Assembly: GCA_002118135.1 (NCBI GenBank)
Contig: BDIU01000156.1
Coordinates: 132,231-196,230 of the forward strand
Length of the DNA: 64,000 bases
Reading direction: 5' to 3'
DNA from: Trebouxia sp. TZW2008
Taxonomy: Eukaryota; Chlorophyta; Trebouxiophyceae; Trebouxiales; Trebouxiaceae
Shown here piece by piece: positions 2,340-51,169 of the stretch. Position numbers and translations under genes: made by a program. The first letter of the stretch is position 1, and the number at the start of each line of letters is the position of its first letter. The notes under the pieces are model-generated. The model searched no databases and was not told the origin of the DNA. It saw only the letters and a list, made by a program, of their open reading frames with translations.

Positions 2340-5300
2340 CTGTGCCAATTGAGATGCAGCCTTAGACTCAGCAGCATCAGCAGCTTTGTCGTCAACTTCT
2401 GCACCCTTGGCACCATTGCTGTCTCTGTGCTCTGCAGCTGTGGCGGCGGTGCCGTTGGCTGTGGCGGCAGTGCCGTCAGCTATGGCTGCATGTCCGTTGG
2501 CTGTGGCAGCATGTCCATTGGCAGTGGCTGCATGTCCGTTGGCAGTGGCCGCCTTGCTCTGGTCCGGCGCTACTCTGTTGAGCTGAGTGAGCAGAGTCTG
2601 CTCTTGCTTGAGCAGCTGAGTGCGCTCTGTGTCACATGCCAGCACAGCTTGAATGACTGTTGTGTCATCACCAGACACCTGCAGTTCCCACAGTCACAGT
2701 CTTGTGGTGATTGCACAAAACAGACTGCACTAATCATTGCAGTCGGTGCCATTGCAGCCAATCTTTCCACTTGTATCCAATTCCATATGCTGCTATTTTT
2801 GCAAGGGTGCATGCTGTTGATCTGACACATGGCCAGTATGGCAAGCTGTCATACACTTGCTCTCACGCCAAGACCCAGACACTGCGGCCTGAAAGCATGC
2901 TCCAGTGCTGCCCTGTCTGTAGACCATTGAAATGTCAAAAGCTAAGGCAGCTTCAAAGGACTGAACTGAGCTTTGAAAACCACAACAGCGCAGCTGATCA
3001 ACACCATCACAGCAATCATCAATATAAGCATCCGTGGAAGCATCACTGTCCACAATCTTGCAAACAACCAGCGCACAAAAAGAAGCGCTATGGTGCACAG
3101 AAAACCACACTTCCCTGCAACCGTCATTGTGCATGTCAATGCATAAGGATCCCAACCCCTTGCTCAGCCCTCAAGAATGCACACATCACAGCAAACACGT
3201 TTGCGCATGTCAAGGCTTGCAAATCTAACCTCATGCTCAATTGTTGGGAATGCACAGATTGCAAACATGGTTGCTCATGTCAATGCATAAGGATTCTAAC
3301 CTCTTGCTCAGCTCTCAAGAATGCACACATCACTGCAAGCATGTTTGTGCATGTCAAGGCTTGAGAGTCTGACCTCTTGCTCCACATGCAAGATTTGGCA
3401 ATTTTCTGGGATGCCCTTGATTTGGTGCTGGGCCATGGCCCGCAGCAGCGTGGTCTTGCCGGTACCGTTACGCCCAACCAGACCGTATCTCCTTCCGAAT
3501 GCCATTGTCACCGTTGCATCCTGTTCACAGCATTCGGGTCAGATGTAAAGGCAGGAAACATGATATACCCTACCAAATGATCTATAGAGACGGAAAACAG
3601 GATATGTCCCACCAGACCATATCTCATTCCAAAGGCCATCGTCACCTTTGCATCCTATGTACAACACGTGTGTCAGATGCAGAGACAGAACACAGCACAA
3701 GTCCTGTTGGGCTGCGACTCTGACAGCCATTCTGACTGTTGCAGCCTGTTCACAGCGTTTTAGTCAGATGTGGGGGCAGGAAAGAACCATGGTCCGCAGC
3801 AGTGTGGTCTAACCTGTATCATCACGCCCAACCAGACCCTATCTCCGTCAAAAAACCATTGTCACTGTTGCATTGTCACTGTTGCATCCTGTTGCACAAA
3901 AATAGAGTAGGCAACACTCAAGCAAGAAAACATGTACCATACACGCAGTGCAGACATCACAAAGCATGATGGAGCCATACAATGCCACGTCTCAATGGCA
4001 AGCATAGTACATCAGTGGTGCTTCGTAGCACATGATGACATTGCTGATGGTGTGCATCTTTCAGCTGTGGGTCTACAAGTCAGGCCAAGGACCAGGGTTC
4101 TACAAGGCCTCTGAAAAATCGGGGGTTGCCCTCCACAGGGGCAAAATTTCGCGGTGGCATTTTGGTTGGCGGTTTGCGGGGGCTGTCCACGGGCAATGAC
4201 GAGTGCGTGCGGGGTGCCAAGTTGCGATTTCTGTTCGAAAGCACATATTGCCTGTTATTCCATTTAATTGTGGTGTGGCAGCACCGTATTTGCTTAAAAA
4301 GCAAATACGCATCTTTTGCAGGCAAAATCTTTGTACAGCCCACAAAATTGATGTTCCAGCCATAATTTTGTGTGGGCTGCCCACTTTGATGCAATTTTTT
4401 GACGGGGTCTTTGCCCCCATCAAAAAATCAAATCAAGTCAAACTACGGGGCCTGCCCGCGCACGGCCGAAGGCCGGGCGCAGGTCGGGGGCCATGCCCCC
4501 CCGGGCAGAGCGGGGGGTGTAGAACCCTGCCAAGGACCTGATCCCAAGCATTGCATGCTAGGCTTCTGCAAGCAGCCAATGCAAAGGCACTCAATTGCAA
4601 GGCTGTTTCCACACCCTCAAAGTGTACTTCCAAATGCAAAGGGTTTGCAGAATCATTACCTCAATGAGCTCTTGGCCACCATTAGACACAGAGAAGTTCT
4701 CCAGGTGCAAATCCTTGCTGCCCATGGTGCCCTTGTTGCGCTGCACTTGAGGAGCGGCGCCTGCCATTGTCTCTGCTGCCCTTGCCTGAAACAGCACGCA
4801 ATGGTGTGACAGCAAGTTGATGCAAAAGCCGAAAGTGGGTCAACACATAAGCGTCTGCAGGTGGCAATGGTGACCTTGTTGCGCTGCACTTGAGGAGCAG
4901 CACCTGCCATTGTTTCTGCTGCCCTTGCCTGGCAAGCCACAGCATGATGAACTGTCTTGACAACTGTGTAAAGCAGGAGGGATACGCATTGCAACAGAAA
5001 CAGGGTTGGCATGCTCAAGCGGCAACGCTTGTCAATGTCTCCGCTGCCTAGCCTGGCACAAACCACACAGTGCAACAGTGCAACAGTTTCTCGGCAAGGC
5101 ATCAAACAAGCAAGGAGCCTGTCCTTGTTGCGCAGTACTTGAGGAGCGGCGCCTACCGTTGTCTCTGCTGCCCTCGCCTGGCAAATCACACACAGCTGAG
5201 ACCTCATAACAGCAACGCAATGCAGTAAGCATGTGTCAATATGTAGAGGAGGGGAGGTGGAAGACAGCAGAGTCTTTTCTTTGGGGAGGGGCGGTGGGGG

Positions 5301-6951
5301 GAGGGGGCGCAGGGATGTCGAATTGTGGAGGGGAAAAGAGGGGATGGTTGAAAGGCAGCCCCTGCCATTGTCTCTGTCATCCTGGTCTGGTAAAGCATAC
5401 ATTGCTGGCACTTCCTCACACTCAACACAATGCAGGAGAGAAGTGGTTGGGCGTACACATTGCCACATGCAGATTAGCACAAGCCTGTGATGCCTACTTG
5501 TACATATGCAGCTGCAGCTGTGCTGCTGTTTCCTTGGAGCCAACAATATATTCATGCCAGATGAGCAAGGTATGTTGCAGCAATAGCTAGTCATGTAATC
5601 CGTTGTCCGACCTGGTGAGCTGCCAGAGCTGCCCTGGCCGCTTTGTCATCCTTCTCAGCTTTCTTCTTCATCTTCGCTACATCTTTGTCCGTCTTCAGAC
5701 TCAGATCCTCATCTCCCTCAAATGGAGTTTGGATCATATCCCTCGCTGAAACACGCTCACTGGCATGCACGGTGGCTTTGTTCATTTCAGCCATGTTGAA
5801 TGGTCCACCTGCAAACAAGAACAGTAGAGGCTTAACATTAATCCTGCTCAATTGTCACAGGAAAAACTTGCTGTTCTGAAGGTTGCTGTTGCTTGCATTG
5901 TGGCCTTGTTCATTGAAGCTGCATCAACTGGTGCATCTGCAAAGAAGAACGGTAGAGGCTTGACATTAGTGCTGTTTCCTTTCCACAATCAGTACGTGCT
6001 GTTCTGACATCTGCTGGCATGCACTGCAGCCGTGTTCACTTCAGCCGCATTGAATGGTTCGCCTGTCAACAAGAAAGGCAGAAGCCAAGCCACACTCTTG
6101 CCCTCGGTACCATAACGGGCATACACTGAACTTTTGGCTTCCAAATGCAGGCCAGACATGAAAGCATTGCAGATGTTTTCAAGCTGAGCAGAACCCATAA
6201 AACGCATTGTCGCCCAGATCAACCCAACAGCATGCATGGAAGGTTGATGCTGACCTGCCAACACCCTGAAAGACGATTTGGAAGGCGCCTGATTCTGGCC
6301 AAGCTTAACGGCCAGCTGCTTGCATGCTTCCTGGCAGTCGTCATCATTGCTGAAATGCCCTCCGTTAACCTGCGCAATGAAGCTGTGATGCGCCCAAGTC
6401 ACACATTCTCTACAAAATGTCCGTGCTCGCCAGCGACATGGGGGTGCTTGACTGATGAAGCTGAGCAGATATGGCATTGTTCTGTGGTAAATGTCTGGAA
6501 TGGCTATGCCTTGGGGTGGGCAAGATTGGGGTGGGCATATATAAAGGGCTTGCGATACAACTTTGGGCCCTGAACTTGAATTGTGACGCGGCCTGTCTAC
6601 ATATATGTATGTATGCATGCATGTTGCAATGATTGCACCTGAATTGCTCAATATAGCACTGTCTCTTTGAATTGCACATTGCTGTGACATACTTTGCAAT
6701 ACAAACGTAAATCAAAGCTGGCTTGCATGGCTGCATTACCTAGTTGAGGTGCTATGTGACAATTCACGCAATGTGTAGAGGTGCGACCATACCAGAACAG
6801 CCCCAAAAGCATCAAAGGCCTCCTCGCCATCAGACCCAAATTCAAATTCGCAGTCCTCGAGGATGCTGACAACGTATTCAAACACGGTGTCATCTCCCTT
6901 GGTGCCTACCACCTGCTCTACCACTTGCCTGACTTCAGCTGGTGTTGGCAT
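2340..6951 (-). CDS. ABCF3: ABCF3/GCN20-like ABC-F ATPase, N-terminal half (partial)
   Basis: Soluble ABC-F ATPases of the GCN20/ABCF3 class have two ATP-binding domains and no membrane part; in yeast the relative acts in Gcn2 translational control. Seven minus-strand exons join in phase: 6951-6793, 6369-6265, 6183-6102, 5808-5612, 4785-4660, 3520-3374 and 2678-2340, giving 385 residues. The start is the ATG at 6951. The acidic N-terminus (CEFEFGSDGEEAFDAFGAVL) and the Lys-rich stretch in 5612-5808 match the family. The Walker A exon at 3374-3520 has GLVGRNGTGKTT followed by GIPENCQILHVEQE, both hallmarks of ABCF3. The 2340-2678 exon continues with GDDTT and then carries an Ala/Thr/Asn-Gly-His repeat insert. 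The third exon needs a GC donor (GAGG|GCAAGA) and is the least certain. The ABC signature, Walker B and second ABC domain are absent and should lie left of position 1. Confidence 0.85.
3130..3373 (-). repeat. Copies of the Walker A exon's 3' edge and donor
   Basis: Immediately downstream (in transcription sense) of the 3374-3520 exon, its last codons plus donor recur as 'gagcaagaggttag', 'gagcaaggggttgg' and 'gagcatgaggttag'. They are separated by repeated 'gcacacatcac...caagcatgtttg' sequence. The copies have no acceptor of their own and look like duplicated exon-intron junctions. Confidence 0.6.
3560..3900 (-). repeat. Two decayed copies of the Walker A exon start
   Basis: Minus-strand copies of the acceptor and start of the 3374-3520 exon lie upstream of it in transcription sense. 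The nearer copy (about 3605-3665) still reads D-A-K-V-T-M-A-F-G-M-R-Y-G-L-V-G, then diverges. The farther copy (about 3785-3895) has a duplicated 'tgcaacagtgacaa' and frame damage inside the Walker A region. Both keep a 'g/gatgca' acceptor-exon junction. Confidence 0.75.
4093..4529. mobile_element. hAT-like MITE with perfect 8-bp target-site duplication
   Basis: The 437-bp element has 12-bp terminal inverted repeats, CAGGGTTCTACA at 4093-4104 and TGTAGAACCCTG at 4518-4529. It is flanked on both sides by the identical 8-mer CCAAGGAC (4085-4092 and 4530-4537). Eight-base duplications and CAGGG-type ends are typical of the hAT superfamily. There is no transposase-sized ORF, so it is non-autonomous. 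The right end is strikingly GC-rich compared with its surroundings. It sits in an ABCF3 intron between the exons at 4660 and 3520. Confidence 0.9.
4786..5410 (-). repeat. Copies of the 4660-4785 exon start
   Basis: The acceptor and first codons of the ABCF3 exon (reading A-R-A-A-E-T-M-A-G-A-A-P-Q-V) recur at about 4850-4932 and 5110-5180, and more weakly at about 5350-5400. All lie upstream of the true exon in transcription sense. Similarity fades after about 25 codons, and none has the rest of the exon. A purine-rich stretch near 5245-5345 lies inside the array. Confidence 0.75.
5860..6064 (-). repeat. Copies of the 5612-5808 exon start
   Basis: Two short copies of the acceptor and exon start of ABCF3 exon 4 lie upstream of it, at about 5890-5951 and 6005-6063. 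The outer copy reads G-E-P-F-N-A-A-E-V-N-T-A-A-V-H-A-S, close to the real G-G-P-F-N-M-A-E-M-N-K-A-T-V-H-A-S, and then diverges. They repeat the pattern of acceptor-side copies upstream of real exons. Confidence 0.7.
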
Positions 6952-7842
6952 CGCGCAGTCTGACACCAATCCCGATCGGCCGCGTGTTCCACAAGCCTGT
7001 CGCTATTATAACAGCAAGCAAAGAGCTTGTCCAGGCCTAGTACTAACCAAAGCGCAGTCAGGTCAACTCAGATCAAACCCCGCTGTGTATGCTCGGAGCC
7101 GACAGAACGGGAGCACTGCCGAGATGTCACGAAGTGCAGGGTCCTTGCACAGGATGATCTACGTCTCGGCAGCTGATGTCGGTCAAAGCTGCACATACGC
7201 CTATTAGGCAGACCTAACAACAGCTGTGTGTCTGAGTCTTACACAGCTGTGTGAGATAACCGGTCCTTCTTCTTCATGCTGTCCCTCTGAGTGTCTAACT
7301 GGCAGTAAATTTGAAGCACACACTTTGACTTTGTCTGCCCAATGCTGCTATCATCTGCGGTTGACCACCTTTGTGGACACAGGCCTCTGGTGATCCAGGC
7401 TCTTCGACCGCTGCACATCAGTATGTCATGAAACATCATTGCCTGAGTACGTATATGGTACGTATATGGTAACACTGTGGTCACGGCTCGCTACCGCAGG
7501 ATGCATGTGGCCCTGCCGATATAGCATTGGTGTGAAGTGTGTTTGCCAAGACCAGTTACATTGGTCCAGAGCTTTACTGCTGACCCACTGAAAATCCTGA
7601 ATAGGACTAGGCAAAATGGCAAAAATGGATCTGCCAGCATGACTACAATGCATCTATGCGACTGATCCGGCGCATTACAGCTGCAGACGTCCTGTCGCTG
7701 CGCCATTAGCAGCTTGTTTGATCGTAGCATCGCCTGCATTGACTGCGCTCCAATCGCACGGCATTTTCCGCCATCTCCTCAGTGCTGACCTGTTGCATCT
7801 TCGATCACATGCATCTCACATAGAGGGTTGCGGACCACCGCG
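6952..7842. promoter_or_regulatory. Divergent intergenic region (ABCF3-like / MIC60-like)
   Basis: The 891 bp between the two start codons must hold both upstream regions. It has no repeat array and no coding exon I can support, in contrast to the introns on either side. A directly repeated 'gtatatggtac' lies near 7449-7468. No TATA box could be assigned with confidence. Confidence 0.45.
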
Positions 7843-10800
7843 ATGCAGCGCACACTCAAGGGAAATGGTGTGATCAAGCTATACGCATCTTCCCTCATCC
7901 GAGGCTATTCCTCCAAAAAGAAGGTAGATAACAACGCCCGCGCTGGCAAAGGAGGCGTTTACTCTCGCTGCTCTCGGCATCAACAACATCTGTTATGCGG
8001 CTTGCATACTATACTGACATCGCTTGTAGGGCTCAGCCAAATACCCAACTTTGCATGAGCCTGCAATTGCCAAGCCTGATGCCACTGGCGCTACAGCTGC
8101 CAATCCTGGCAACCATGCATACCCACCAACAGCAGGAACATCCACAGCTGCAAAGCCAAGCCAGCCGACCTCGTCCAATGGCACAACATCCAGTACAGGC
8201 ACTGCGCAGTCTTCAGCTGATGGAGCGGCATACACACCCATAGGCAAAGATGCAAAAGTCAACCAAAATAGCAGCAGCAGTACCAGCTCAACACAATCAT
8301 CAGGTGATTGCGCCTGATTTATCACACAACATTTTGATCAAGCCTAGCCTGGACCAAACTGATTGCTGGCTCAATGACTGTACCATGGAGTTGGGCAAGC
8401 AGCTCTTGGGGATCTTTGTATGCCATGGAAATTTGATCAGGACAAGTCGCTTGTGCTACCTGCGCTGTGCTGCAATAGCATGCCCTACAATGTACCATCA
8501 TGGCTGTCCTAGTCAATGGCCATGTGAGAATGCTATGGTTTTGAAGATGATTCAAAGCTTGGATGTAAGGCAAAGCCAAGCATTGCTGCGCAAGTGATTG
8601 TCGTGCACCTGCATGTCACTCAGCATCATTGCTGTTACCTCAACATCATTGCCCTTACGTCAGCATCGTTGTTCCTGCATGCAGCCAGCAGCTCATCCTC
8701 CTCCAGTCCAAACCCCCCTCAGGCTTCTGGAAGTCCATCCTCTTCTTCTGCAGCTCAGCCTCAGGCCCCATCTTCTTCCTCAAGGGCTCCCAGGGCAAGC
8801 CCTAATGCCAGCCCTGCTGAAGCCCCTGGCAATCATGCCTACAAGCCCATTGGTGCCTCTAGCCCTGTCAATAAAAGCACCCCAGCCAATAGCAGCAGCA
8901 ATCCACCAACTTCAGGTGATGACACAAAGCATTATGTTTTGGGTTTCCTACATCACCTCATGAATTTGACTGCTATTCAAAAGGCCATTCTTGCTTTTGT
9001 CCACAAACAAAACTAATTTTTCAATCAGAGGAATTGAAGTGTAGCTAACTACTTAAATGCAGTAACTTCATAACTGCAACTAGCATGGATGCGAGTCAGA
9101 AGCCAAATCTATCCAGGTCTGTAACAGCAAAACCCTGGAAAGCTCTTGGCTGGTCATGTTGCGAGGCAAAGATTTGTGACAAAGACACCGGGTGTGTGTG
9201 CTACAAAGTCTGGTGATCATGACTGTTGTTATGTAGGTGCTCCTGGCAACCATGCCTACCGTCCCACAGCTGGCGCTGCCTCATCATCAGGCAGGGGTCA
9301 ACCCCCAGGACCCCCACCTGCAGAGCCCCTGCCAGGTATGTTCAGGTCATGTACAATGACATGCATTGTTCTTGTCTGGTTTGAAGACATGACTGGCAAG
9401 ACAGCATCCTACAAATCTTGGGTCAAAAACTATTTGGATTTGCTGGAGAGGAAAGAAAGTCCAACTCACTCTTCCTTGCAGGGGCTAGAAACAGGGGGAG
9501 GCTGCACCCATACTTCCCCTTCGATGTGAGGCCCATCAGCGTTGCATTGTTGGGACTAGGCACATATCTGTATCTGGGCACTGAAAAGCAACAAACAGCA
9601 AGATAGGCAGGAAAACGTCCCAAAATTGCTTCACAGGAAGGAAATCTTGATCCACTTTGCTTGCAGGGGGTAGGAATAGGTGGAGGCTGCACCCATACTT
9701 CCCCTTTGATGTCAGGCTCATCAGCGTTGCATTGTTGGGACTAGGCGCATATCTATACGTGGGCACAGAAGAGCAGCATCAACCCAGGGTTGGGGATGGC
9801 AGAATTTTGGGGTCCCCAGACTCCCGAGAGCCTGACCCCAAACTGCTGCCCAGTGGTGAGCCTAAGCCTTTTGACGAAGAAGCTGTTGCCAAGTTTGAGC
9901 AGCGGCTTGAGCAACGCACCAAGCATGGACAGACACAGGATGACAGCCAGCATCAGCCCAATGCAAGGGACGGCAGAATCTTGGGGTCCCCAGACTCTCA
10001 AGAGCCTGAACCTAGGCTGCTGCCCAATGGTCAGCCTGAGCCCTTTGACGAAGCAGCAGTTGCAAAGCATGAGGAGCGGCTGCAACAGCATCAGCCTAGG
10101 GTGGGTGATAGGCGCAAGCTGGGGTCCCCAGACTCCAAAGAACCTCAACCTGAGACTCCGAGCAGTGACCAGAGCGCTGTAGGCAAACATGAGCAGAGAC
10201 TAGCACAGCGCTCTCAGCATGCTGATGACGGTGACAGTCAGCATCAGCCTAGGGTGGGTGATGGGCGTAAGCTGGGGTCCTCAGACTCAAAAGAGCCTCA
10301 GCCTGAGAATCTGCTTGGCGGCTCAACAGCAGGCAACAAGTCTCAGCGTCAGTCATCAGGCGATGGTGGTGGTGATCAAGACAGTCAGCATCAACCCCGG
10401 GTGGGTGATGGGCGCAAGCTGGGGTCCCCTGACTCTCAAGAGCCTGAGCCAGAGCGTTTGGATCACACTGCTTTGGACCTTGATGCTGTTGACAGACATC
10501 AGCAGCAGCTAGAGCTGAAGGCACGCCAGAAGGAATCTGAACAGGTTTGGCCATCAACTCTTGATGTCAGGGTTGTTTAATTAGTCGGTGATTTGGAAGC
10601 AGACTCCCAAAAACTGCACTGACGAGCAAGCTTTGGAAAAGCGCCAAAATCACATATTGTAGCAACGTGTGTCAAGGCTGTTTTGTGTGAGAGTGTACAC
10701 CGCTGTAGCTATTGAATGCTCTGCCTGCTTCACTGTCACCTGTCTTGCAAAGCCTCAAAAATAGACTTTGATGCTGTTGACAGACATCAGCAGCAGCTAG

Positions 10801-13800
10801 AGTTGCAGGCACGCCAGAAAGAATATGAGCAGGTTTGCCCATTGACTCTTGCTGTCAAGGTTGTTGTGCGTGAAAGTGCAGACTGCTGTAGCTATTGAAT
10901 GCTGTGCCTGTTTCACTGTTGCTTGTTTTGCAAATCCCAAAAAGTTGTTGCCCAACTTGAATCTTGCAGAGTTCAGCACACACCTCAAGCCTTGTTCATT
11001 TCAGGGGTCAGACACTGTCATCATGCGCTATCATTTTGCTTGCAGCATCAACCTCGAGCAGGTGATGGCAGAATCCTTGGCTCTCCAGATTCTAAAGAGC
11101 CCAAGCCAGAGCTGCTGGACAACGGCGAGCCACTGCCGTTTGATGAGAAAGCTGTTGCCAAGTTTCAGCAGCGGCTGGAGCAGCGCACAAAGCACAGACA
11201 GACTCAGGATGACAGCCAGCATCAGCCCAGGGCGGGGGATGGGCGCAAGTTGGGGTCCCCAGACTCCCAGGAGCCTGACCCCAGGCTGCTGCCCAATGGT
11301 GAGCCTGAGCCCTTTGATGAAGAAGCTGTTGCCAGGCTTCAGCAGCGGCTGGAGCAGAAGGTATGCGCGGCTATTGTTGTTGTTGCTCCAGCAATTTTGC
11401 TTTGTAACAACTGCTTTGCTTACCAAGAAAGCTGTTCTTATGTTGAGCCACTGCTGTTTGATGAAGAAGCTGTTGCCAGGCATCAGCAGCGGTTAGAGCA
11501 GAAGGTATGTGCCGCTTTTGTCATTGATGTTGTTCCAGTGAGTCCTCCTTGTGACAAATGCTTTGAGCGCCAAGAAAGATGTCCTGAAATCGAATGGTCA
11601 TTATTCAGAGGTACCACTCCAGTCAGGATGCACTATGTGGTTGGAAACGTTCTTACATCAAATGTCCTTACATGGACAACTTGCTGTAGTGCTGTTGCTG
11701 ACATTGTTGTTTTTCAATTGTTGCTAGGGCAGAAGGCACTGAGCATCCTTTTTTCCCGTTTATTCACAGTTCAGCCTCTAAACAAGACAATCTGCTGCCC
11801 TACACTCACAGTCTGAACCCAAGCAGAACAAGATTTATTACTGTTGAGTATCCAGGATTGTCACAACTGCCAGAGCAGTTCAGCCTGGACAACTCAGGCC
11901 TTGTCACAGACTCAGTCAGCATTTGTTCTGCAACCCTATGCAGAAGCTGTTGAGTGAGCTCGTGCTCTGCTTGACTTGCTGCCAATACTCCCCTTTTATG
12001 CCATGTGTTCCCAAGTGGATACATGCCTCCTCTGTCACCCTCTTCCTACACGCACAAAACCGCTGTACTTCAAATGTTCTTAATTACATGTGGGTAGGGA
12101 CACGCAAGTTCACATGCTCATAATCTGCCCAAAGGTATACCCTGTCTGGAGGTGTTGCTGCATATTTCAGGCCAAGCAGCATTCATCACGGCATGAGAAC
12201 GCCCATTCTGATGAGTTTGCCCTGTCTGGGGATCAAGAGGGGCAAGAAGGGGGGTTACAGGGGAATTCAAAGGGGGGCAAGGTCGAGAAGCCAGTGTATG
12301 TCGACACCACGCCTCTGGCAGCCTTATTTCAGGTGAACTCCATATTGCTCTGCACATTATAGAAGGCAATGTATGTTAGCACGACACTTCTGACAGCCTT
12401 GTGTTGAGTGAGCTTACTACTGTGCTGTTTGCTCTCTCATCCTTGCAGCTGACAGCTGATAAATTGCTGCCAATAGCACAAGGTGTGTTTGGTATGAAAC
12501 AAGGCTGTCAGAGGCATAGTGTCATTTGATGTTTGCGGCTGACAGCTGACAAATTGCTGCCACTGAAACAAGAAACGGCCTACCTCAAAAAAGGCTGCCA
12601 GAGGCATCGTGAGAAGTCAGAGTGTATTGACGCAATGCCTCTGACAGTCTTATTTCAGGTGGGCCAGCTCTTGTGCTTTCGGCAGCAACAGCAATTGTAT
12701 GGTATCTGTATAACCTCACTCTCTGTCCTGGCAGCTGACAGCTGACACATTGCTGCCAACAGCACAAGCGTCAGTTAGAATGAAAACAGACTGTCACGGG
12801 CATAGTGTCAGCGTAAATGGGCATTTGATGTTTGCGGCTGACAGCTGATAAATTGCTGCCAACAGAACCAGAACGGCCCACCTCAAAAAAGGCTGCCAGA
12901 GGCATCGTGAGAAGTCAGAGTGTATTGACGCAATGCCTCTGACAGTCGTATTTCAGGTGGGCCAGCTCTTGTGCTTTCGGCAGCAATAGCAATCGTACGG
13001 TATCAGCATAACCTCACTCTCTGTCCTGGCAGCTGACAGCTGACACATTGCTGCCAACAGCACAAGCGTCAGTTAGAATGAAAACAGACTGTCACAGGCA
13101 TAGTGTCAGCATAAATGGGCATTTGATATCTGCAGCTGACAGTTGCAAGTATGAGAACCCAATGTATGTCAACACAATGCCTCTGACAACCTTATTTGAG
13201 GTGGGCCATTTCCTGTGCTATCAGCAATGTTTCAGCTGTCAGTTGCCAGATGCAACGACAAGAGGCCAGTGCATGTTGACATACACGCCTCTGACAGCCT
13301 TGTTGTAAGTGAATCTACGATGTGCTTTTGGCAGCAGTCTGTCAGCTGCAAGTATGGGAAGCCAATGCATGTCGGCATCACACCTTTGACAGCCTAATTT
13401 CAGCTGAGCCACCTCTTGTGCGATTGGCAGCAACCTGTCAGCTGTGGCTGTAAATATGGGAAGCCAATGCCTGTCGGCATCACACCTTTGACAGCCTGGT
13501 TTCAGCTGAGCCATCTTTTGTGCTGGTAGCAGCAACCTGTCAACTGTGGTTGTAAGTATGGACAGCCATTGTATGTTGACACCACACCTCTGACAGCTAT
13601 GTTTCAGGTGAGCTTGATATTCTTGTTGTCAATGACAATGCTGCTTGCCTGGAGTTGCAAACTTGTACTGCAAAGGCGATGTCAATGTAGTCGCAACATC
13701 ATGAACTGCAAGGAATGTTGCATGTTTCACAATCTGTACAGACCTCTATGCAGCGGCCACTTTGTTGCTGCTTGAGCAGGGCAGAAGTCGTCTGCCTTGC

Positions 13801-33339: not shown

Positions 33340-33479
33340 GAAACAAGCGATTTTTGCAGCAGCTGTAACAGTCACGCTGGCTGGTTGACGTCATTGAATT
33401 AGATGCATGCCATTTTGCAACTACAGTCTGCTACACAGGAAGCAGTCATGTCAAAAAAGGATTCACGCATATTGCAGCA

Positions 33480-40100: not shown

Positions 40101-42925
40101 TGACATGCTTCAGAAGAACCATGACGAGTTGCAATTTCTTGCCCTTGATACTGACCTATTGATGCCCAAGCAAAGCACGATGTGCTGCGGACAGGTCAGG
40201 TGAGGCCTGTCATCTTTGTGACGGCGAGGGTGCACCCTGGGGAGACCCCAGCGTCCTTTGTGGTCCAGGGTCTGTTGGCCTGGCTGCTCAGCACCAATAC
40301 CCAGGCTGTGCAGCTGCGCCAGGCTGCCACAATTGTGGTGATACCCATGCTCAATCCTGACGGCGTCTTTCTGGGCAATTATAGGTAGGCAGCGGATGTG
40401 CATTGATCTGTATCTGCACTTGCATGTGGCCATGACCAGATGGTGTCTTCCTACGCAAAAGTATTCAAAATTTGAAAGATGCGTGTAGGCGCAGAGATGT
40501 GCAGTGCATTGGGTTGACACATGTTTCAAGCAGTCTTCTGTTCATGCAGCTGCTACTTGAATGAAGAGTCATCATGCCAACAATAGCTGATGCCGCAATG
40601 ATGCGCATCATCTTGCAACAAGTGTCTGCCAGATGTCCCCATCTGTGCAAAGTCCATGCGTTGCTGCGCTCCTCTGTACATCAACCAATGGGGGCTTGGA
40701 TAAGTTGATAACCTAGCTGCCTTCACACAGGGCTGCTGGTGGTGGCGGTGGAGAACAGATATAGCTGTAGAAGGTCCTTGGGTTGCTTGAGAGTTCTGCT
40801 TACCTTACTTTCACCTTTGCTTTTGCAGGACTGATGCAGGAGGGCAAGACCTTAACCGGCTGTGGGGCTGTGCCTCACCAGCCCTGGAGCCTGCCCTGTA
40901 CTACACACTACAGCTGATGCACAGGTGACAGGTCTGGCCGAACCCTGCCAATGTGTTGTGTGTCGCGCTATACTTCTGAATACCATCTACATCTTTGGCA
41001 GCTGTATAATTGCATGCTGATGTTTGATGCATGATAATGAATAATTATGAAATTTGATGAAAATACTGTGAAATGTTGATCAAAATTGCATAGCTTTACT
41101 GCTGTTTCAGCCAACGACACTGCCCTCCATAGGATTCAGGCAATGCAATGTAGGTGTCATGCATAAGCAGTCTGTAGAGGACTGTGTATGAGGGATTGCA
41201 TGCAGTGCAGACATGTTGGCATGGCGGCAAGGTTTGGTATGCGACTGTATCTTGCGCAATTTTGCAACTGGCTGCCATCATATGTGTAGCTTCCAAATTT
41301 GCATATAGACAAGTCTTCTGAAACTGCTGCAGGTATGAAGAAGACCCAGGGTATCAGCTGGACATGTTTGTGGACATTCATGGTCACTCAGCCAGCCGCT
41401 GTGGCTTCCTGTTTTGCAACCCCCCTTCCGACCCCTCCCCCTCCCCCTCAGACTTGCAACGCATCAATAGGCTTCCAGAGCTGCTGAAAGGCAACATGCC
41501 TGGCTTCTCTCTGGCTGCCACTCGCTATGACGAAGATGCACGCAAGATCGGTTGTGCCCGCAGAGTTGTAGGTAACAACTGCTCTTCTTCACCACAAGAA
41601 CATAACTGCAATTTGACACTTTCTAGCACACAAACCAGGTGTGTGTTGCGCAGGTTATGTCTTTCCAGGCCGTTCTTCTCACTGTGTGACAATGGAGACA
41701 AGGACTCTGCATGCCTGACATCTGTCAGCAGCTCAAAGTCTTGCGTGTCCTGGGGTTGTGGCACAATGCCGTGATCATCTGTATCAAATGCACAGTGGGC
41801 ATGCAAGTTTTGATTGCTGAATCAAGCTAGGTTTGGATTGCAATGTAAAGTGATGTTGTCAGCGTCTCTTCCTTTGGAAGTGACCAGGAGCAAGTATGCC
41901 GCTGCTCATCAGCCCAAATCATGCATTCTTGCCACAGGAAAGCTATTCATATCAGCGTAGCAGCATGTACAGAGACATTTAAGTTTCTCCCTGCTGCCTC
42001 TTTCTCTACCTGGCCAGCTGGCCTGCAAATGCTCTGGTTGTGTTGGCATGTTCACCTACATGTGCAGCCCTTGATATGAAGGCTGCACTGCAGGATCAAC
42101 GTTCAAGAATGCTCTGAGCTACACCCTGGAGATCTCAATGTTCAACATTCCTACCAATGCTGGCAAAAGTGCATCACCTCCAGGTGAGCTACAGGCAGCC
42201 TAGTGTGGTAAATGTGTTTGCTGTGAAGCCCATTGGTGACCGTGGCCGCTCTATACATGTCTACTGTTCATGAATGTTGGCTGATCTCTTTTGAAACCGT
42301 TGATTGCTCTGGCTGGGTGTGTTATTTAGTGGGTATTGAGGGTTTGAGGACTGATTGTTGTCTGCCATTCTTGACTTCTTGTTGAGCTTATCATGAACAA
42401 GTCTGACTGTTGGCACTAAGGCGCTTTTCCATGGCACACCACCAACAAAACCCTTTGTGCATGTGCACACTGTACCAATTTGGCGGTTGCAGGTGTATGC
42501 GTATCAGTAGAATTGCAGCATCAAGCTCTGCTGAAATGCATTTGGGCCAGCCTTTAGCATGATGGGCCTCTGTACCCTCCTTTTTCTGCATCATGCATGC
42601 AGCACCTCAGAGTCTGCATGCCAATGCTCACCAAGCGTATTTTGGATAAGTGGTTGCTGAGCAAAAGATGCTGTGTCGTGCCTTGCAAGTCTTGCATGGA
42701 ACGACACAGCATACAGCCACAAACAAACACTTCCGGAACTGCGTACTCAAGAGTAGCTGTTGTATGTGCACAGGCAAGCTCAGCAATTCAGTGTTGGGGA
42801 TCAGCGCCAGCAAAGATGAAGCAAATGCAGACTCTGGTTGTGATATTGAATTCTGCAATACACCTGAGGGATACCTGGAGATGGGCAAACAACTTGGTGT
42901 GGCATTTGCTGCTATCTATAGTTGA
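34135..42925 (+). CDS. M14 cytosolic carboxypeptidase (CCP/AGBL-like), copy 1
   Basis: CCPs remove C-terminal residues, chiefly glutamates, from tubulin and other proteins. Exons: 34135-34206, 34407-34768, 35315-35465, 36116-36648, 37340-37524, 38323-38512, 39526-39704, 40195-40384, 40829-40924, 41333-41571, 42094-42183 and 42774-42925. All are in phase, giving 812 residues. Residues 1-372 are low-complexity, with a Pro run and Ser-Gln-Gln repeats. The CCP N-domain follows (L-W-F-H-F-Q-M near 423; E-F-A-Y-T-Y-P-Y-S-Y). The catalytic part keeps R-V-H-P-G-E (zinc His and Glu, about 571-574), N-P-D-G, Q-D-L-N-R, D-I-H-G-H-S (zinc His) and S-Y-T-L-E (catalytic Glu). All key residues are present, so it should be active. 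The disordered N-terminal exons are assigned on phase alone. Confidence 0.85.
35120..35314 (+). pseudogene. Upstream copy of CCP1 exon 3
   Basis: About 35158-35262 reads V-K-H-P-L-S-S-T-E-S-V-A-L, almost the same as the start of the 35315-35465 exon and after the same 'ctgtctgcag' acceptor. It ends in a stop at 35265 instead of continuing to a donor. Confidence 0.75.
36649..37339. other. CCP1 intron 4
   Basis: No exon is supported. Near 37135-37270 there are short AT-rich repeats of the type 'cgtattgcacattacgtattgg'. The acceptor at 37339 is strong and in phase with the donor at 36649. Confidence 0.4.
37945..38322 (+). repeat. Two upstream copies of CCP1 exon 6, each ending in TAG
   Basis: Copies at about 37954-38082 and 38142-38269 follow good 'tgcag' acceptors. 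They read V-I-L-N-F-V-N-F-S and V-V-L-N-Y-V-N-F-S, then R-H-G-M and P-T-H-P as in the true exon at 38323-38512. Both stop with TAG at exactly the point where the real exon goes on to F-Y-Y-K. Neither has a donor. They could be skipped relics or poison exons. Confidence 0.85.
38500..39120 (+). repeat. Array of exon-6 ends with 'ttgacag' donors
   Basis: The end of CCP1 exon 6 ('ttcaccattgacag|gtgatcatctac') recurs more than six times in diverged form, for instance near 38560, 38625 and 38775. A tidier 38-bp run ('cttgacaggacatcatctat') of about three copies lies at about 38980-39085. Some copies keep a GT after the 'gacag'. They lie wholly downstream of the real exon. Confidence 0.75.
39165..39525 (+). 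repeat. Two upstream copies of the E-F-A-Y-T-Y-P-Y-S-Y exon
   Basis: Copies at about 39179-39285 and 39370-39470 carry the acceptor and first 30 or so codons of the true exon at 39526-39704. The first stays in frame for about 35 codons and then diverges. The second has a frameshift (T-W-R-G-S-S in place of T-W-E-R-Q-Q). Neither has the exon's second half or donor. Confidence 0.85.
39705..40194 (+). repeat. Downstream copies of the D-V-L-I-I-E-D-L exon end
   Basis: About 39828-39885 reads K-R-V-D-V-L-V-I-E-G-L-S-T-D-V and about 40048-40085 reads K-T-V-D-V-L-I-T-E-D-L-Y. Both repeat the end of the preceding exon, together with downstream intron sequence ('cagtcagct'). Confidence 0.7.
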
Positions 42926-43485: not shown

Positions 43486-43698
43486 ATGAGGGCGTCAGGC
43501 ACATCGCGGGGCTCATGCAACGTACTTTTCCTACGACGATCTCGCGATCTTTCTGGACAATACTTCGGGCGGACCCGCAGCTCCGGCCTCGCAATCCTTC
43601 AGGCATACTTCGTCCCACCATTTCTGGAGTCTGCATATCCGGAAGCCCCGCTTGCACTGTCAAAGAGACTTGGGTCTGTTACAGACAACTTGCAAAAG
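43486..43698 (+). CDS. Candidate first exon of the second carboxypeptidase gene
   Basis: A CpG-rich block with an ATG at 43486 reads 71 codons to a donor (AAAAG|GTGATC). All three forward frames are nearly open, as often in CpG-rich first exons. The frame from 43486 ends in phase 0, while the first certain CCP2 exon (44563) needs phase 2. Either another exon intervenes or a different frame is used. A second open stretch with coding character lies at 43715-43924 (V-S-V-I-E-E-E-F-T-M-P). No family is recognised. Confidence 0.35.
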
Positions 43699-44562
43699 GT
43701 GATCAGTAAGAAGTATGTTTGCCTACGACATAGCATCAAGCGTCAAGAAAACAGCAGCACAAGGTGTAGACTTGGTTTCAGTGATTGAAGAGGAATTTAC
43801 TATGCCTCAACAGCACACTGTGCTTGGAATCCCAGTCTTGCAAAGATTAATACAGTTCATTGACCCTGTCAGAAAGCAAGCTGCAATATGTCCTGGTCAG
43901 CAAGCTGTGCAGCTGACAGTATGAGACGCTTGCGCTATGCTTGCACATACAAATGCACAAGACCAACAAATTGCAACACAACGCAACTGGTCTGTACAAC
44001 ACTTGACGAGACTATCACTCTGCACTGACTCAGTATCAAGTAGCTGTAAATACATCAACCTCTCAAAGTTTCAGTAACTGCCAGTACGGGTATCTGATAC
44101 TCACCTCAAGGCACATTTTGGCTGAATTGCATGTTTTCGGTATTGCAAGCTCATGCGTTCATCAGTGTAGGTTCTTGCGGGCAGCATCATGCGCACGACA
44201 GGTTGATGCAAGGCCAGATCCTGCACACCAGGTTTGTTGTCTGCATAACATGGAAGTCTAGCTTTGTGCATTGAGCACAACTTGCTTCAGCACTTTGCTC
44301 CATAAACAGCGTTTCACATAGAGCGCCAAGCGCGGTCATGTGCTTCCGTATTTCTTGACCGCACCATGACTCTGTTTGCTGCACATGTTTTCCTGGTTCA
44401 CGGCAGCACTGCATAATTCAACATGCTCATGACGGCTTAAGAACTGCTTCAAGCTGAGGCCCTTGCTTGGATAGCCTCTTCGCAATGTATCCCACGTGAA
44501 ATGCAGCGCTGCAAGATCAACGCTACAGCAGCATTATCAGCACAAGGATTCTGCTGTTGCAG

Positions 44563-47500
44563 GACAATGGCAACAAATGCTGCATCAAACAATGTGATGT
44601 TCAGCAGCAACTTTGAGGGTGGTAATCTAGGGACCGTCACTGCCATCAGTGATGGATCAGAGTATGACATTGAAATACATGAAGACAGCAGTGGCCCGCA
44701 GCACAGATGGTGGTTTCATTTCCAAATGTGTGGTGGCATAACAGGCAAGATCTTGTGCGCTGCTGCTGCCTGCATTGCCCTTATTGGCGCTAGCTGCTTG
44801 CTTGGTCATGCCTGTATAATCTCCAAGTCATCTGCGCATTAGAGATGAGTTTGCTATCAAATCCATCTGTTCAAGTCTGGGATTTTTGTTTTAGCGGAAA
44901 TTTCCTTTTGCCTGAGTCATGTGCAGAAAGCTTGCGTTACACCCATTACTTGTAAATTGCTATGACGCAAGATCTCTGTGAGTGCTGTTGTGTCTGTCTG
45001 CTCAGACGTAGCTCACCTCTGTTCAATGGCAGCTACTTGTGCTGCCATGCGCCTGCCTACTGATTTGTGGTCAAACGCTCATAGCACCTGTGCTAGAACG
45101 CGTAACATGTTGTCTCTGTTGTCACATGTGCAGGACAGGACATCAAGCTCAATTTGATCATCCGCAGCAAAGCTCGAGAGCTATACAGACATGGCATGAC
45201 GCCTGTGATACGTAGTACCAGCCATGCCCAATGGGCACCCATATCACCCCAGCACTGCTCCTATCAAAGGCATAAGCATGGTCATAGCCATGTGGTGTCT
45301 GCATCAGTCACGATAGACAGGTCAGCACTGATGGGGCATAGCCATGTGGTGCCTGCATCAGTCGCTATAGACAGGTCAGCATTGATGGGGCATAGCTATG
45401 TGGTGTCTGCATCAGTCACCATAGGCAGGTCAGCATTGATGGGGTACAGCCATATGAGGTCTGCATCAGTCACTGTAGATAGGTCAGCATTGATGGCTTT
45501 GAGGTTGACATCTGAATTCCAGTATAGGCACAACCACATGACGTCTGCATCATTCACCGTACACAGGTCAGCAAATGGCTTTAGGCCAAACATTAGCACC
45601 CCAAGCTGTGTGCAGATATCGCTGTGTGCACAATGTCGGTGTGCCCATGCTAGGACTTGTTGGTGTGTAAGCATCCTAATCTGTGTACAGTTGTCATTGT
45701 GCTCACGGTGTCAGTGTGCCCAAGCAAACGTATGTTGCTGTATACAGGATAGCGATGTGCACTGCCCAGATTTGTGCACACAGGCAGACAATGTTCACAG
45801 CTATGCATGCACAGCCTCTCAACGGCCTGATTGGCGTGATAAGACACGACACTTGAAAATTACAGCATGGCAGCGTACACATTTTGATGGAGAATGTCTC
45901 TCAGTTTGTAAATGTGCCTGTGCAAGAAGGCTGATATTTGGCTTGCAGGGATGATGCAGCATATGAGTTTGCATACACCTATCCATACAGCTACAGTCAC
46001 CTGCAGCAGTGGCTAATGGGCTTGAGCAGGCAGCATCTGCCACACGCGAAACGCCAGACGCTTTGCACAACACCACAAAACAGATGTGTTGATATGCTGA
46101 CCATTGAAGAAGCACAAGCAAATGTAGGTGAGTGTTGCGACTACATGGTCCTAGCCAGAGGAATGCAGAACTGTCAATTTTGCTTGTCGTGCATGCACTG
46201 TCAAGCATCAGCTCTTTTGCGCAACGGTTACTGTACATATGAGGCTGTGAAACATCTACTTGCTCTTCCAACGTACACCTGTGCTACCCAGACCTGCATT
46301 TGTATGTGCATATCTTAGTACAGTGCAAAGAATGGTCACAAAGCGAGCCAACTTGTGCCATCCTCCAGAGCAAATGCATCAAACACAACAGCTGCAAGAT
46401 ATCATCCATCTGAGCCACCCTCATAGCGATGACTTGTTCATCAGTACAAGCTACTCATGCACTGCATGCGCATTGAATTGTTTTGGTGGTAGGTGCAGGC
46501 ATGCAGAGGCCTGTGGTTGTCGTAACAGCAAGGGTGCATCCTGGGGAGACTCCAGGGTCTTTTGCGGTCCAGGGTCTGTTGGCCTGGCTGCTCAGCACCA
46601 ACACCCAGGCTGTGCACCTGCGCCAGGCCGCCACCGTTGTTGTGGTGCCCATGCTTAATCCTGACGGCGTTGCTCTAGGCAAGTACAGGTCAGCAGTGCA
46701 AAGCGCAGATGTGTTGCCCATGCTCAATCGCAATGGCTTTGCACCACGCAAGTCTAGATCAGCTGAACAAACAACAGCTGTGCTATTGCCATCCATGTAC
46801 AAGGCAACAAATGGCTTTGCCTACACATTGAAGGGGTCTCTTCATCCTGTGCTCAACCCTGGTGATCCTGCGCTATGCCAGTACAGGTCATTCCAGCACA
46901 CAGCAGCTGTCCTCCCTTATCTGTTGCTGCAAAGGCCAGAATGACTTGCACATGTCTGTGCATTGCTCCTGTTTGGGTATCAGTCCATTTGCTATCTGCC
47001 CTTGCCCTACGCTTTGCAGGACTGATGCTGACAGGCAGAACCTGAACCAGCTGTTTGGCTGTGACTCACAATGCCTGGGCTCTGCTTGGTACAGAAGCGT
47101 GGCCAGAACGCTGTCCGAAACTCTGTCCAGAACCCTGCTAGATTGTGATTGTGGTGATGCAGGACTGATGCAGAAGGGCAGGACCTGAACAGGCTGTGGG
47201 GCTGTACCTTGCAGGACCACCAGCCTGCCCTATACCACACCCTGCAGTTGCTGCACAGGTGATCTCAAACTTGTCTTGATTGCTTCTGTACCTTCAAGGA
47301 GCCTGTGCAGCAAAACAACACACGCAAGTCCCCCTGACACGCACAATGGCTGATGCCTGTCAGGATGCTTAAGAAAGGTTCCCATTGATACACACATCAT
47401 GTATGCATAATAGCATTGCCTTTGCTATTTTGCAAAACCTTCAACGACCTCCATCATGCTTTCAGCATGAGCTTCTGCTTGGTCTCTGACTTGCGTGCTT

Positions 47501-49449
47501 TCATGTCATGTATGTCATCTTATTCTTTGTGTTGTTGCAGCATACAGTCTGGAGTTGTTCCTAGACGCACAGGGCCACTCAGCCAGCCCTTGCTTCATGT
47601 TTTATATTGACCCTACTCCAACTCTCAAACCTCGGTCCCCTCCCCTCCTCGCCTCCCGCCTCTGCTTGCTTGCTTGCTTGCCTACATGCCAACTGCTAGG
47701 TCCGACATGGTGTCTTGTTGCAGGTATGACAAAGATCCAGCATACAGTCTGGACCTATTCCTGGATATACATGGCCACTCAGCCAGCCCCTGCAGCTTCC
47801 TATTCTGTAACACCCCTACTGGACCCACCTCTGGCCCCCCTCACGGCCCCCTTGCAACTGACCCAACCCCAGCAGAAGTCTCTCCTGCTGCTGCAAGCTC
47901 TACACAGGACCATGTCCAAAGGTATAATATTAGATGCAAGACAAGTAGCATCAGATTCAGGGATGTGTTTTACTGTGAGACTCATATACAGCATCTCGGT
48001 GAGATGTGTGCATGGCCTCGTGCAATAAGCACAGGACCTGCACAGGGTAGTACAGGTGAGGGCCACTGGTCAGCAGCCACTGCTGTTGCACCAGACAGAC
48101 CATGCAAGTGTTGATGCATCTAAGTCTGCCATTCTGAACTTGATGCTGTGTCGGCTTGTAAGACCAAAGTACGGCACCATTCGATGCGCATAACAAGCTT
48201 TTCAACTGCCCAGAATCAATCAAGATGTGCCAATCTGCCTTGCCAATGATGCAAAATGATGCCTTGCAGGCTTCCTGAGCTTTTGAATGGCCATATGCCT
48301 GGCTTCTCTCTGGCTGCCACGCGCTTTGACGAAGATGCACGCAAAGTCGGCTCTGCTCGCCAAGTCATAGGTACAATGTCACCTTTGAGATCCTATCATG
48401 CAACTACAGCTATGCGTGTGAATGTTTAGCTTTTGAACCCAAATGAGTACCCGCAGCGTAGCTGCTTTCGGTTCTCAGCAGTTGACATTTTGGAATCAAA
48501 CTGCAAGAACCACACTCAGCTTTTAAACCCTTTTTGAGCACCTGCAGCATAGCTCTTTCCAGTCCTCTAACGTTTTGGGATCAATTTTGCAAGCACCACA
48601 TGCTGAATGCCTGTACTACACAACAGCAGAATGCCAGCATACAATAATGAGACTGTGCAGATATGCAAGAATTACAGATGGGAAGCCAGTCTGTTCAGAT
48701 TGTCTCTTTTGCAGGCGATATCTTCAAGCATACGCTCAGCTACACCCTTGAGATAGCCATGTTTCACACCGCTGACACAGAAAGCAGACCTTGTCATTTG
48801 CCAACAAACTCAGGTAAGCTTTGCATTCTTGGATTCTTGCAGAGTGTAACAGCCTTGCTTAGACAGCATGAACGTCAAATGCTGGGACGGTCCCTTGTGA
48901 TCACAGCCATGGCCAAGCCTTCCCCCTTTCCCGTGCAATTCACCTTGCACCGTGTGCAGCAGCATTCATCAGTCAGAAATGCAGACTGTTTCAGCATCTT
49001 CCACTGCAAGTTGTTTGCCAGTCACGCTGCTCACCTAATGACAAGCAAGTGAGTGGCAGGCCCTAATGTCTGCCACTCCAGGCTGTCATAACTGCAAGCA
49101 GTTTGAAGCTCCTATGTTGCAAGCAGCATGACGCCTGTTTTGCACATCAAGCTACATCTGTGAGCTGCAAAATGCTGTCTGGACCAGAGTTGTCATGTAT
49201 GGCTGTAAGCTAACGCAGGTTCCAGTCTGCGTTGGTATCAGTGCTGCTTTGCAATGTGCAGGCGAGCCTTCAATGGACCAGTCAGATGGCAATGAGAACG
49301 CTGCTGAAAAGGCTGCTGCAGAATTTTGCAACTCACTTGAAGGCTACAATGCAATGGGTGAACAGTTGGGTGTTGCCCTTGCCAAAATGTATGGCCATCA
49401 GCAGTTGTCCACGGCAGATAACAACAAGTCTAGGAAACGTAAAGCATGA
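44563..49449 (+). CDS. M14 cytosolic carboxypeptidase (CCP/AGBL-like), copy 2; 5' end unresolved
   Basis: Exons in phase: 44563-44744, 45134-45320, 45949-46127, 46499-46688, 47163-47258, 47724-47921, 48270-48370, 48715-48813 and 49262-49449, giving about 473 residues from the N-domain to the stop. Exon borders match copy 1 almost exactly. One extra intron (47922-48269) splits what is one exon in copy 1. Catalytic motifs are intact: R-V-H-P-G-E, N-P-D-G, Q-D-L-N-R, D-I-H-G-H-S and S-Y-T-L-E. The C-terminus (E-F-C-N-S-L-E-G-Y) matches copy 1 and ends in a basic K-S-R-K-R-K-A tail that could be a nuclear signal. The first intron uses a GC donor (ACAG|GCAAGA) where copy 1 has GT. This is a tandem duplicate of copy 1, old enough to have diverged widely. 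Confidence 0.8.
45321..45570 (+). repeat. In-frame ladder of 54-bp exon-end repeats, each with a donor
   Basis: After the first donor at 45321, the exon end (H-V-V-S-A-S-V-T-I-D-R|S-A-L-M-G) repeats. 'AG|GTCAGC' donors fall at 45321, 45375, 45429, 45483 and 45567, with spacings of 54, 54, 54 and 84. All spacings are multiples of three, and the exon frame stays open through the whole array and up to 45954. Use of any of the five donors would give the same phase and add 0 to about 82 residues. Confidence 0.8.
46689..47162 (+). repeat. Copies of neighbouring CCP2 exon edges
   Basis: Downstream copies of the M-L-N-P-D-G exon end lie at about 46708-46755 (M-L-N-R-N-G-F-A) and 46845-46888. An upstream copy of the next exon lies at about 47020-47075 (T-D-A-D-R-Q-N-L-N-Q-L-F-G-C) after a 'tttgcag' acceptor. 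None is a complete exon. Confidence 0.75.
47259..47723 (+). pseudogene. Decayed upstream copy of the CCP2 D-I-H-G-H-S exon
   Basis: About 47541-47615 reads A-Y-S-L-E-L-F-L-D-A-Q-G-H-S-A-S-P-C after a 'gttgcag' acceptor. It copies the exon at 47724, but the zinc-binding His of D-I-H-G-H-S has become Gln. It has no donor. Inclusion would not give a working enzyme. 'gctt' repeats lie near 47664-47685. Confidence 0.75.
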
Positions 49450-51156: not shown

Positions 51157-51169
51157 GCAGCTCTACCAA

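Follow-up and report, generated by a model that had tools for sequence, protein, structure and literature searches.

The introns of a stretch of 64,000 nucleotides from the lichen-type green alga Trebouxia sp. TZW2008 hold decayed tandem copies of the splice junctions that bound them. The stretch, referred to here as the window, comprises bases 132231-196230 of contig 151 in a genome of 68.5 Mb and 527 contigs. Copies of the start of an exon lie upstream of that exon and copies of the end of an exon lie downstream of it, with one exception. The presence of these copies is confirmed, and they are probably the remains of short, near-neutral tandem duplications that are placed with little regard to gene structure and that lengthen introns when they straddle a splice junction. 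Seven gene segments of the window, ABCF (on the minus strand), MIC60a, MIC60b, FES1, CMCJ, CP1 and CP2, were modelled by hand after a small purpose-written gene finder, and all seven curated models are open and continuous in one frame. The exon edges of CP1, CMCJ and ABCF were fixed by alignment to homologous proteins and those of CP2 were set by DNA similarity to CP1, while the edges in MIC60 and FES1 were set from the open reading frame and the splice consensus.

At 89 junctions (46 acceptors and 43 donors), probes with at most 60 exon bases and 30 intron bases were aligned to the flanking 2 kb in either direction, exons being masked. A null from 890 alignments to remote regions of the window reached 30 at its 99th percentile and 33 at most, and a score of at least 30 was counted as a match. 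Recognisable copies lie near 24 of the 89 junctions (12 acceptors and 12 donors), with 56 matches in total, 52 of them above the null maximum. An earlier note on this DNA, made from the letters alone, had stated that the introns hold decayed copies of the adjoining exon edge, and this is borne out; all nine of the upstream and all seven of the downstream examples that it gave were recovered. Some of these examples carry a qualification, in that the copy at 47541 begins within the exon, so that its alignment does not include the acceptor, and the copy at 46708 is weak (score 34). Copies were also found at 19496-19935 (four) and at 12340-13610 (eight matches), where the exon edges are predicted or set by consensus rather than checked by homology. 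Assemblers can be misled by short repeats, yet an assembly artefact or chance similarity has next to no probability as the source of the copies, as they are 72-96% identical to the exon edge and so are not duplicated reads, and the null gives about one match where 56 were found.

The matches are strongly polarised. Acceptor edges have 23 matches upstream and none downstream, and donor edges have 32 downstream and one upstream, so that the polarity is kept in 55 of 56 matches (Fisher P = 8e-15). The earlier note had found this polarity never broken, which holds except for a donor-edge match upstream of its exon at 10770-10802 in MIC60, which links two exons whose ends are themselves repetitive. 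This same repeat, viewed in reverse, also gives one of the 32 matches counted downstream (11469-11505), which was assigned to the donor at 10545. All 36 matches in ABCF, CMCJ, CP1 and CP2, which are checked by homology or by the paralogue, have the expected polarity, as do 19 of the 20 in MIC60, and the FES1 junctions have no copies at a score of at least 30. Both kinds occur in the intron at 38513-39525, where donor-edge copies occupy the beginning and acceptor-edge copies the end. This polarity does not amount to a discovery in its own right: if the protein is to stay intact, a tandem junction copy must sit on the intron side, and polarity therefore follows as a consequence of tandem geometry and selection on the protein.

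The copies are head-to-tail direct repeats with a common period, as in minisatellite-like local tandem duplication, and 49 of the 56 matches extend at least 3 bases into the intron. These features agree with the process that the earlier note had put forward, tandem duplication across splice junctions. Distant direct repeats (more than 3 kb apart) in the window consist of the CP1/CP2 paralogous exons with their copies and one 34-base low-complexity match, and no dispersed similar sequence was found among introns of different genes in this set. The growth of introns, also claimed in the note, is supported by their length. The 19 introns with copies have a median of 628 bp and the 22 introns without copies a median of 385 bp (Mann-Whitney P = 0.0003), an association that is to be read with the caveat that longer introns give copies more room. 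Introns in random samples of the genome have medians of 769 bp with copies and 363 bp without. Recognisable junction copies make up 12.1% of the curated intron bases of the window and 2.7% of those in the random sample of 17 stretches (exon score at least 20), the latter share probably falling short of the true one, since old copies can no longer be recognised. The statement that introns "are built from" such copies was therefore too strong.

Age and fate of the copies

CP1 (34407-42925) and CP2 (44563-49449) are adjoining cytosolic-carboxypeptidase-like genes that represent a tandem gene duplication. They share exon edges wherever their DNA aligns, and the lengths of their exons match (179/179, 190/190 and 96/96). 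The comparison with the paralogue covered 18 of the 22 CP1/CP2 copies, the others being two without a paralogous exon and two omitted from the six at the donor 38513. Seventeen of the 18 copies are nearer to the exon of their own gene than to the paralogous exon, and the exception is 23 bases long. By this measure most of the datable copies are younger than the CP1/CP2 split, at which the intron positions were already shared, which would mean that existing introns grew.

A review (PMC3443670) and reports on a potato RdRp gene (PMC4974935) and on Drosophila (PMC2891723) describe the gain of introns by tandem genomic duplication, in which duplication of an AGGT segment inside an exon gives rise to a new intron. 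If the Trebouxia introns had arisen in this way, the copies would be birth marks. Tandem copies, AG|G-type junctions and a known mechanism with reported cases (PMC3443670 and PMC4974935) are in keeping with such an origin. It is nevertheless very unlikely, as CP1 and CP2 share exon edges and lengths while nearly all of the tested copies are nearer to their own exon, and 34 of the 56 matches include 8 or more intron bases. An intron position that is new relative to a paralogue was not found in CP1/CP2, the only paralogue pair that could be tested. The divergence of the copies shows no trend with distance from the exon (rho -0.21, P = 0.16, n = 48), and the proposal in the earlier note that copies could be aged in this way finds no support here.

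The copies decay. A frameshift or an in-frame stop is present in 14 of the 33 window copies that include 30 or more exonic bases. Copy and exon differ by 14.0% at the first codon position, 10.1% at the second and 21.5% at the third, a pattern that a neutral copy (about 10%) and a constrained exon would give; in two real paralogous exon pairs the figures are 13.7, 10.5 and 30.1%. Four stops occur in 740 codons of copies, where simulation gives 6-9 for neutral change. Among the junction-spanning copies the AG is intact in 29 of 32 decoy acceptors and the GT in 17 of 27 decoy donors (Fisher P = 0.014), a difference that is a lead and not a result since the copies are not independent. Decoy donors at 39826-40101, 38545-38869 and 25104-25168 often have an altered first intron base (GT to AT or CT), and loss of AG is rare in acceptors. 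Retention of AG was considered as a sign of function (29/32 against 22.7 expected, P = 0.006) and was rejected because the control dinucleotides are mutable in both copies and the real AG is not; with the copy alone free to change, about 27 of 32 are expected by the author's own estimate.

The many intact decoy sites, and the concentration of differences at third codon positions, would also be expected if the copies were functional parts of alternative exons, serving as alternative acceptors or donors or as mutually exclusive exons in some transcripts. This explanation is distinctly improbable, as the retention of AG is about what a copy that alone is mutable would show, the disabled copies are numerous, and the codon-position pattern together with the stop count matches a neutral copy beside a constrained exon. 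Additionally, no window copy shows both edges of an exon: no acceptor-edge match lies downstream, the only donor-edge match upstream is the repetitive-exon case, and with that same exception no window exon has matches to its two edges on a single side. Whole-exon copies are possible in the random stretches. Homologous proteins do not contain the copies, and inserts of their size are absent from these proteins across the CP1, CmcJ and ABCF junctions; some distant carboxypeptidases have 3-4 additional residues near the junction after 39704.

Recurrence and placement of the duplications

The genome was sampled in 17 random 10 kb stretches and in six later stretches outside the training of the gene finder, 23 in all. 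Counts are given in the order acceptor-edge upstream, acceptor-edge downstream, donor-edge downstream and donor-edge upstream. In the 17 stretches these are 43/11/28/19 for predicted exons scoring at least 14, 35/3/23/13 at 20, 22/0/11/5 at 25 and 15/0/6/1 at 30, and 30 of 180 predicted junctions have copies at an exon score of at least 20. The polarity is correct in 21 of 22 matches at an exon score of at least 30 and in 33 of 38 at 25. Exons supported by a kinase hidden Markov model (HMM) at 10 loci (17 acceptors and 15 donors) give 7/1/12/0, a polarity of 19/20. Two of these loci, L021 and L022, had been picked for doubled kinase-HMM positions; L022 yielded no kinase-supported exon, and without L021 the polarity is 17/18. 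The sole miss is in L025, where one kinase match is divided into two exons. The genome-wide check that the earlier note had called for, made here on these samples, upheld the polarity at confidently predicted and kinase-supported exons and found it diluted at the lowest scores (71 of 101 at a score of at least 14). The pattern recurs in random stretches and at kinase exons and is less clean where exons are merely predicted.

The other predicted exons of the 10 kinase loci give 18/9/7/9, most of them from one array in L030. This array (G000:C143:51001-55900, about 1887-3213 of the minus-oriented locus) is a long acceptor-edge array with a unit of about 170 bp that is partly mis-called as exons. 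Misses in polarity are found mostly in short, low-scoring exons placed inside arrays (L011, L014, L030 and L035), in L005, where predictions fall on both strands, and in one L017 exon. In the author's judgement, which is not proof, most misses at predicted exons are false exons inside arrays.

A search for repeats at distances of up to 600 bp found 84 arrays in the 23 stretches, with a median unit of 133 bp (5th-95th percentile 79-291 bp) and 76 of 84 units no longer than 205 bp. Local direct repeats cover from 0 to 51.5% of individual stretches among the 17, and inverted pairs are few, one in the 17 stretches and 6 against 117 direct pairs in the window. Arrays of all ages have similar densities in introns and between genes (0.24 and 0.28 per kb). 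A first simulation of placement for all ages gave 18 junction-spanning arrays against 7.2 expected in the window and 26 against 10.1 in the random stretches. Measured against the pooled density of the 23 stretches, observed and expected numbers are 31/9.2 for all arrays, 10/7.5 at an identity of at least 85%, 6/5.7 at 88% and 4/5.4 at 90%. The ratios against intron density are 3.61, 1.79, 1.83 and 1.74 for the same classes in the 23 stretches and 3.05, 1.53, 1.33 and 0.83 in the 17-stretch sample, where it should be considered that junction arrays of at least 90% identity number just 2-4 in the samples. At 88%, 6 arrays were observed and 3.3 expected from intron density, a ratio of 1.83 (95% range 0.67-3.99) compared with a pooled ratio of 1.05. 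The two backgrounds diverge because 13 of the 37 arrays of at least 88% identity come from a single stretch, L031, which raises the pooled density. This stretch (G000:C27:10001-20000) carries its 13 arrays in 10 kb, has no gene scoring 35 or more and is far denser than the others.

Duplication may instead be targeted to splice junctions, for example via transcription, R-loops or splicing intermediates. In the random samples, junction arrays of all ages are 3.0 to 3.7 times as numerous as random placement predicts, the window has its own excess, and young arrays are still 1.7-1.8-fold above the expectation from intron density. Targeting is nevertheless unlikely, as the excess over pooled density shrinks with youth until it is gone at 90%, the 95% ranges with intron density include 1, and arrays are also common between genes. 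The fall of the excess toward young arrays fits a longer recognisability of copies anchored to an exon, and most of the all-age excess is attributed to preservation of the exon copy. Young junction-spanning arrays, although few, are neither depleted nor more than modestly enriched (0.7- to 1.8-fold), and aiming of duplications at junctions is not needed by the data. Random placement is compatible with the data and is not proven by them.

Gene models and catalogue of copies

MIC60a and MIC60b are probably one mitofilin-like gene. Pfam searches of the models matched Peptidase_M14, ABC_tran and BTB_2, with Mitofilin below the cut-off, and gave no match for the FES1-like piece or for the first CmcJ-like model. 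The proteins nearest to the models come from Trebouxia. The spliced CP1 protein is 77% identical to one of Trebouxia sp. C0006, 76% to one of C0004 and then 54% to Myrmecia. The CP1 exon 35315-35465 is present in the Trebouxia C0004 protein P0002. For the CmcJ-like protein the identity to proteins from Trebouxia C0005 and C0009 is 66%, and its exon 30981-31132 is confirmed by Trebouxia, Myrmecia and Coccomyxa proteins. The copies are collected in the table below. Those at 4869-5376 and 5891-6075 (ABCF acceptors), 10773, 11457, 25104, 35579 and 39826/39984/40043 (donors) and 24460/24574 (acceptor) go beyond the examples of the earlier note.

Table. Exons and exon-edge copies in the window (positions of the whole stretch).
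Feature	Position	Strand	Evidence and remarks
ABCF exon	3374..3520	-	GRRYGLVGRNGTGKTT; acceptor immediately above 3520 and donor immediately below 3374; in-frame model; matches Volvox and other ABCF proteins
CP1 (cytosolic carboxypeptidase) exon, copies on both sides	38323..38512	+	alignment to homologous proteins
Four acceptor-edge copies of ABCF exon 3374-3520, upstream	3608..3898	-	scores 69, 66, 52, 38; AG kept in the 3 that reach the junction
Three donor-edge copies of ABCF exon 3374-3520, period about 74	3127..3309	-	scores 48, 36, 31; Tandem Repeats Finder (TRF); GT kept in 3/3
Four acceptor-edge copies of ABCF exon 4660-4785	4869-4931, 5018-5055, 5120-5180, 5355-5376	-	scores 106, 31, 92, 34
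Two acceptor-edge copies of ABCF exon 5612-5808	5891..6075	-	scores 66, 59
Acceptor-edge copy of MIC60-like exon 9667-10544	9467..9541	+	score 103
Donor-edge copy of exon 9667-10544	10773..10862	+	score 130
Donor-edge copy of exon 11046-11360	11457..11537	+	score 107
Eight donor-edge copies of exon 12171-12332	12363..13621	+	scores 32-66; MIC60a donor after 12332 by consensus only
Four donor-edge copies of predicted exon end at 19425	19496..19951	+	scores 44-156; separate test; edge predicted only
Donor-edge copy of exon 21202-21396	21476..21551	+	score 92
Short match to end of exon 21686-21808, exonic part only	21903..21926	+	score 38
Two acceptor-edge copies of exon 22632-22898	22267..22508	+	scores 71, 90; older repeat begins near 22027
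Two acceptor-edge copies of exon 24732-24866 (24460/24574)	24460..24641	+	scores 47, 66
Donor-edge copy of exon 24732-24866	25104..25168	+	score 40; GT to AT
Acceptor-edge copy of CmcJ-like exon 30981-31132 (VWRPLRGPVHD)	30825..30897	+	score 86
Acceptor-edge copy of CP1 exon 35315-35465	35136..35216	+	score 122
Donor-edge copy of CP1 exon 35315-35465, exonic part only	35579..35631	+	score 64
Two acceptor-edge copies of CP1 exon 38323-38512	37935..38201	+	scores 89, 67
Six donor-edge copies of CP1 exon 38323-38512	38545..39012	+	scores 30-76; last (38977) at threshold
Two acceptor-edge copies of CP1 exon 39526-39704	39148..39430	+	scores 104, 95
Three donor-edge copies of CP1 exon 39526-39704 (39826/39984/40043)	39826..40101	+	scores 97, 34, 63; GT lost in 3/3
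Four donor-edge copies of CP2 exon 45134-45320	45353..45573	+	scores 42-98; TRF; GT kept in 4/4
Weak donor-edge copy of CP2 exon 46499-46688	46719..46790	+	score 34
Acceptor-edge copy of CP2 exon 47163-47258	47015..47062	+	score 56
Copy of start of CP2 exon 47724-47921	47538..47583	+	score 52; 0 intron bases aligned, alignment without acceptor

The CP2 intron 47922-48269 has no counterpart at the matching place of the CP1 model. GC-AG introns are likely at 22899, 31133 and 44745 (donor CAG|GCAAG), in models that are otherwise continuous. A long predicted coding exon at 16440-18044, apparently within the mitofilin-like gene, consists of degenerate lysine/alanine/glutamine-rich repeats, which we take to resemble those of LEA-type proteins. 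An ABCF intron features a GC-rich stretch with G-run and C-run palindromes at 4080-4525 that differs from its surroundings and is possibly a mobile or repeated element. Two similar tandem stretches about 2.2 kb apart occupy 50538-53352, with 69-74% identity where they match, and one of them (about 53100-53355, minus strand) reads as a BTB/POZ-domain (BTB_2) protein. Imperfect inverted repeats at 62200-63800, one of about 1 kb at 65% identity together with a 78-base palindrome at 62619-62696, stand out since local inverted repeats are otherwise rare in the stretches sampled.

Proposed mechanism, known systems and meaning

The genome would steadily gain short head-to-tail duplications of DNA, through replication slippage or break repair, at positions that are near-random with respect to gene structure. 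When a unit straddles a junction, the outermost site would be kept in use, that is, the first donor to follow an exon and the last acceptor to precede one. In exon definition, splice sites are paired across the exon, and the outermost pair encloses the shortest exon, the one that exon definition would choose. The protein would be unchanged and the duplication near-neutral; the exon copy would stay under purifying selection and the intronic copy would decay. Repeated events would lengthen introns from both ends and leave polarised fossils, donor edges after an exon and acceptor edges before the next. The finding that young junction arrays are not depleted suggests, from a small sample, that the outermost choice is the default and not the survivor of many failures.

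Several observations weigh against this account. The CP2 copies at 46719 and 47015 differ from their own exon more than the paralogous exon does, and their dating is unclear. The lower retention of GT suggests that donor decoys are not fully neutral and are maybe selected against. Polarity is weaker at predicted exons of lower confidence in the 17 stretches, falling to 58 of 74 at a score of at least 20 and further at 14, and the six held-out stretches give 6/1/4/3 at 14 (10 of 14 correct) and 2/0/0/0 at 20. The ratios of young arrays against intron density are 1.7-1.8 and not 1, with ranges that include 1, and young arrays reach 0.24 per kb between genes but just 0.09 per kb in introns. The all-age excess is larger than the roughly 2-fold that simple persistence gives, and extra retention, some targeting or bias of the gene finder may account for the remainder. 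Finally, the use of the first donor and the last acceptor, which the earlier note had taken as necessary, was read from the continuity of homologous proteins and not from RNA.

The lengthening of introns is usually ascribed to transposons and small insertions. In introner- or transposon-driven growth, intron DNA is gained by a repeated process, and the Trebouxia introns likewise gain DNA by repetition, whereas their copies are local. The likeness to intron gain by tandem duplication lies in a short in-gene direct duplication that splicing absorbs with the protein unchanged, and the difference is that the Trebouxia unit spans an existing junction rather than lying within an exon, so that it would lengthen an intron already present. 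In tandem exon duplication and mutually exclusive exons (PMC9013439), too, exon sequence recurs in neighbouring introns, whereas the window copies are partial, single-edged and decaying and do not keep their coding capacity. Intron sliding and near intron pairs (PMC2891723) similarly feature competing splice sites close by; here the used site is apparently static and the copies lie at distances of tens to hundreds of bases.

PMC9013439 gives the share of exonic bases with an at least 80% identical homologue in the parent gene as about 2% in human, 0.08% in fly and 0.06% in worm. A like measure (same strand, at least 80% identity, rest of the gene) gives 18.6% in the window and 8.2-12.6% in the 17 random stretches, with 0-0.9% on the opposite strand; the measure is similar and not identical and was made with different software, so that the comparison holds for the order of magnitude only. 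The share of exonic sequence with intronic copies is thus far above the published fly and worm figures, though measured by other software. A literature search over the titles and abstract openings of the matches listed, with most subscription journals outside it, found no account of genome-wide growth of existing introns by junction-spanning tandem duplication. Such a scale was not described among those matches either, and the absorption of tandem duplications by splicing is already known.

For gene predictors the decoys are a warning, since they were called as exons by the purpose-written gene finder in several stretches. Junction duplication leaves a readable record, and each intact decoy is a natural experiment on the choice between two near-identical splice sites. 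It is tentatively proposed, at less than even confidence, that default exon definition in Trebouxia may nearly hide junction duplications from selection, so that a two-ended ratchet of intron length would run at about the background rate of duplication, with fossil decoys at some one-sixth to one-quarter of junctions, acceptor decoys being tolerated intact and donor decoys removed faster. If such default exon definition holds, arrays of decoys would record splice-site choice, without experiments, in any genome rich in duplications.

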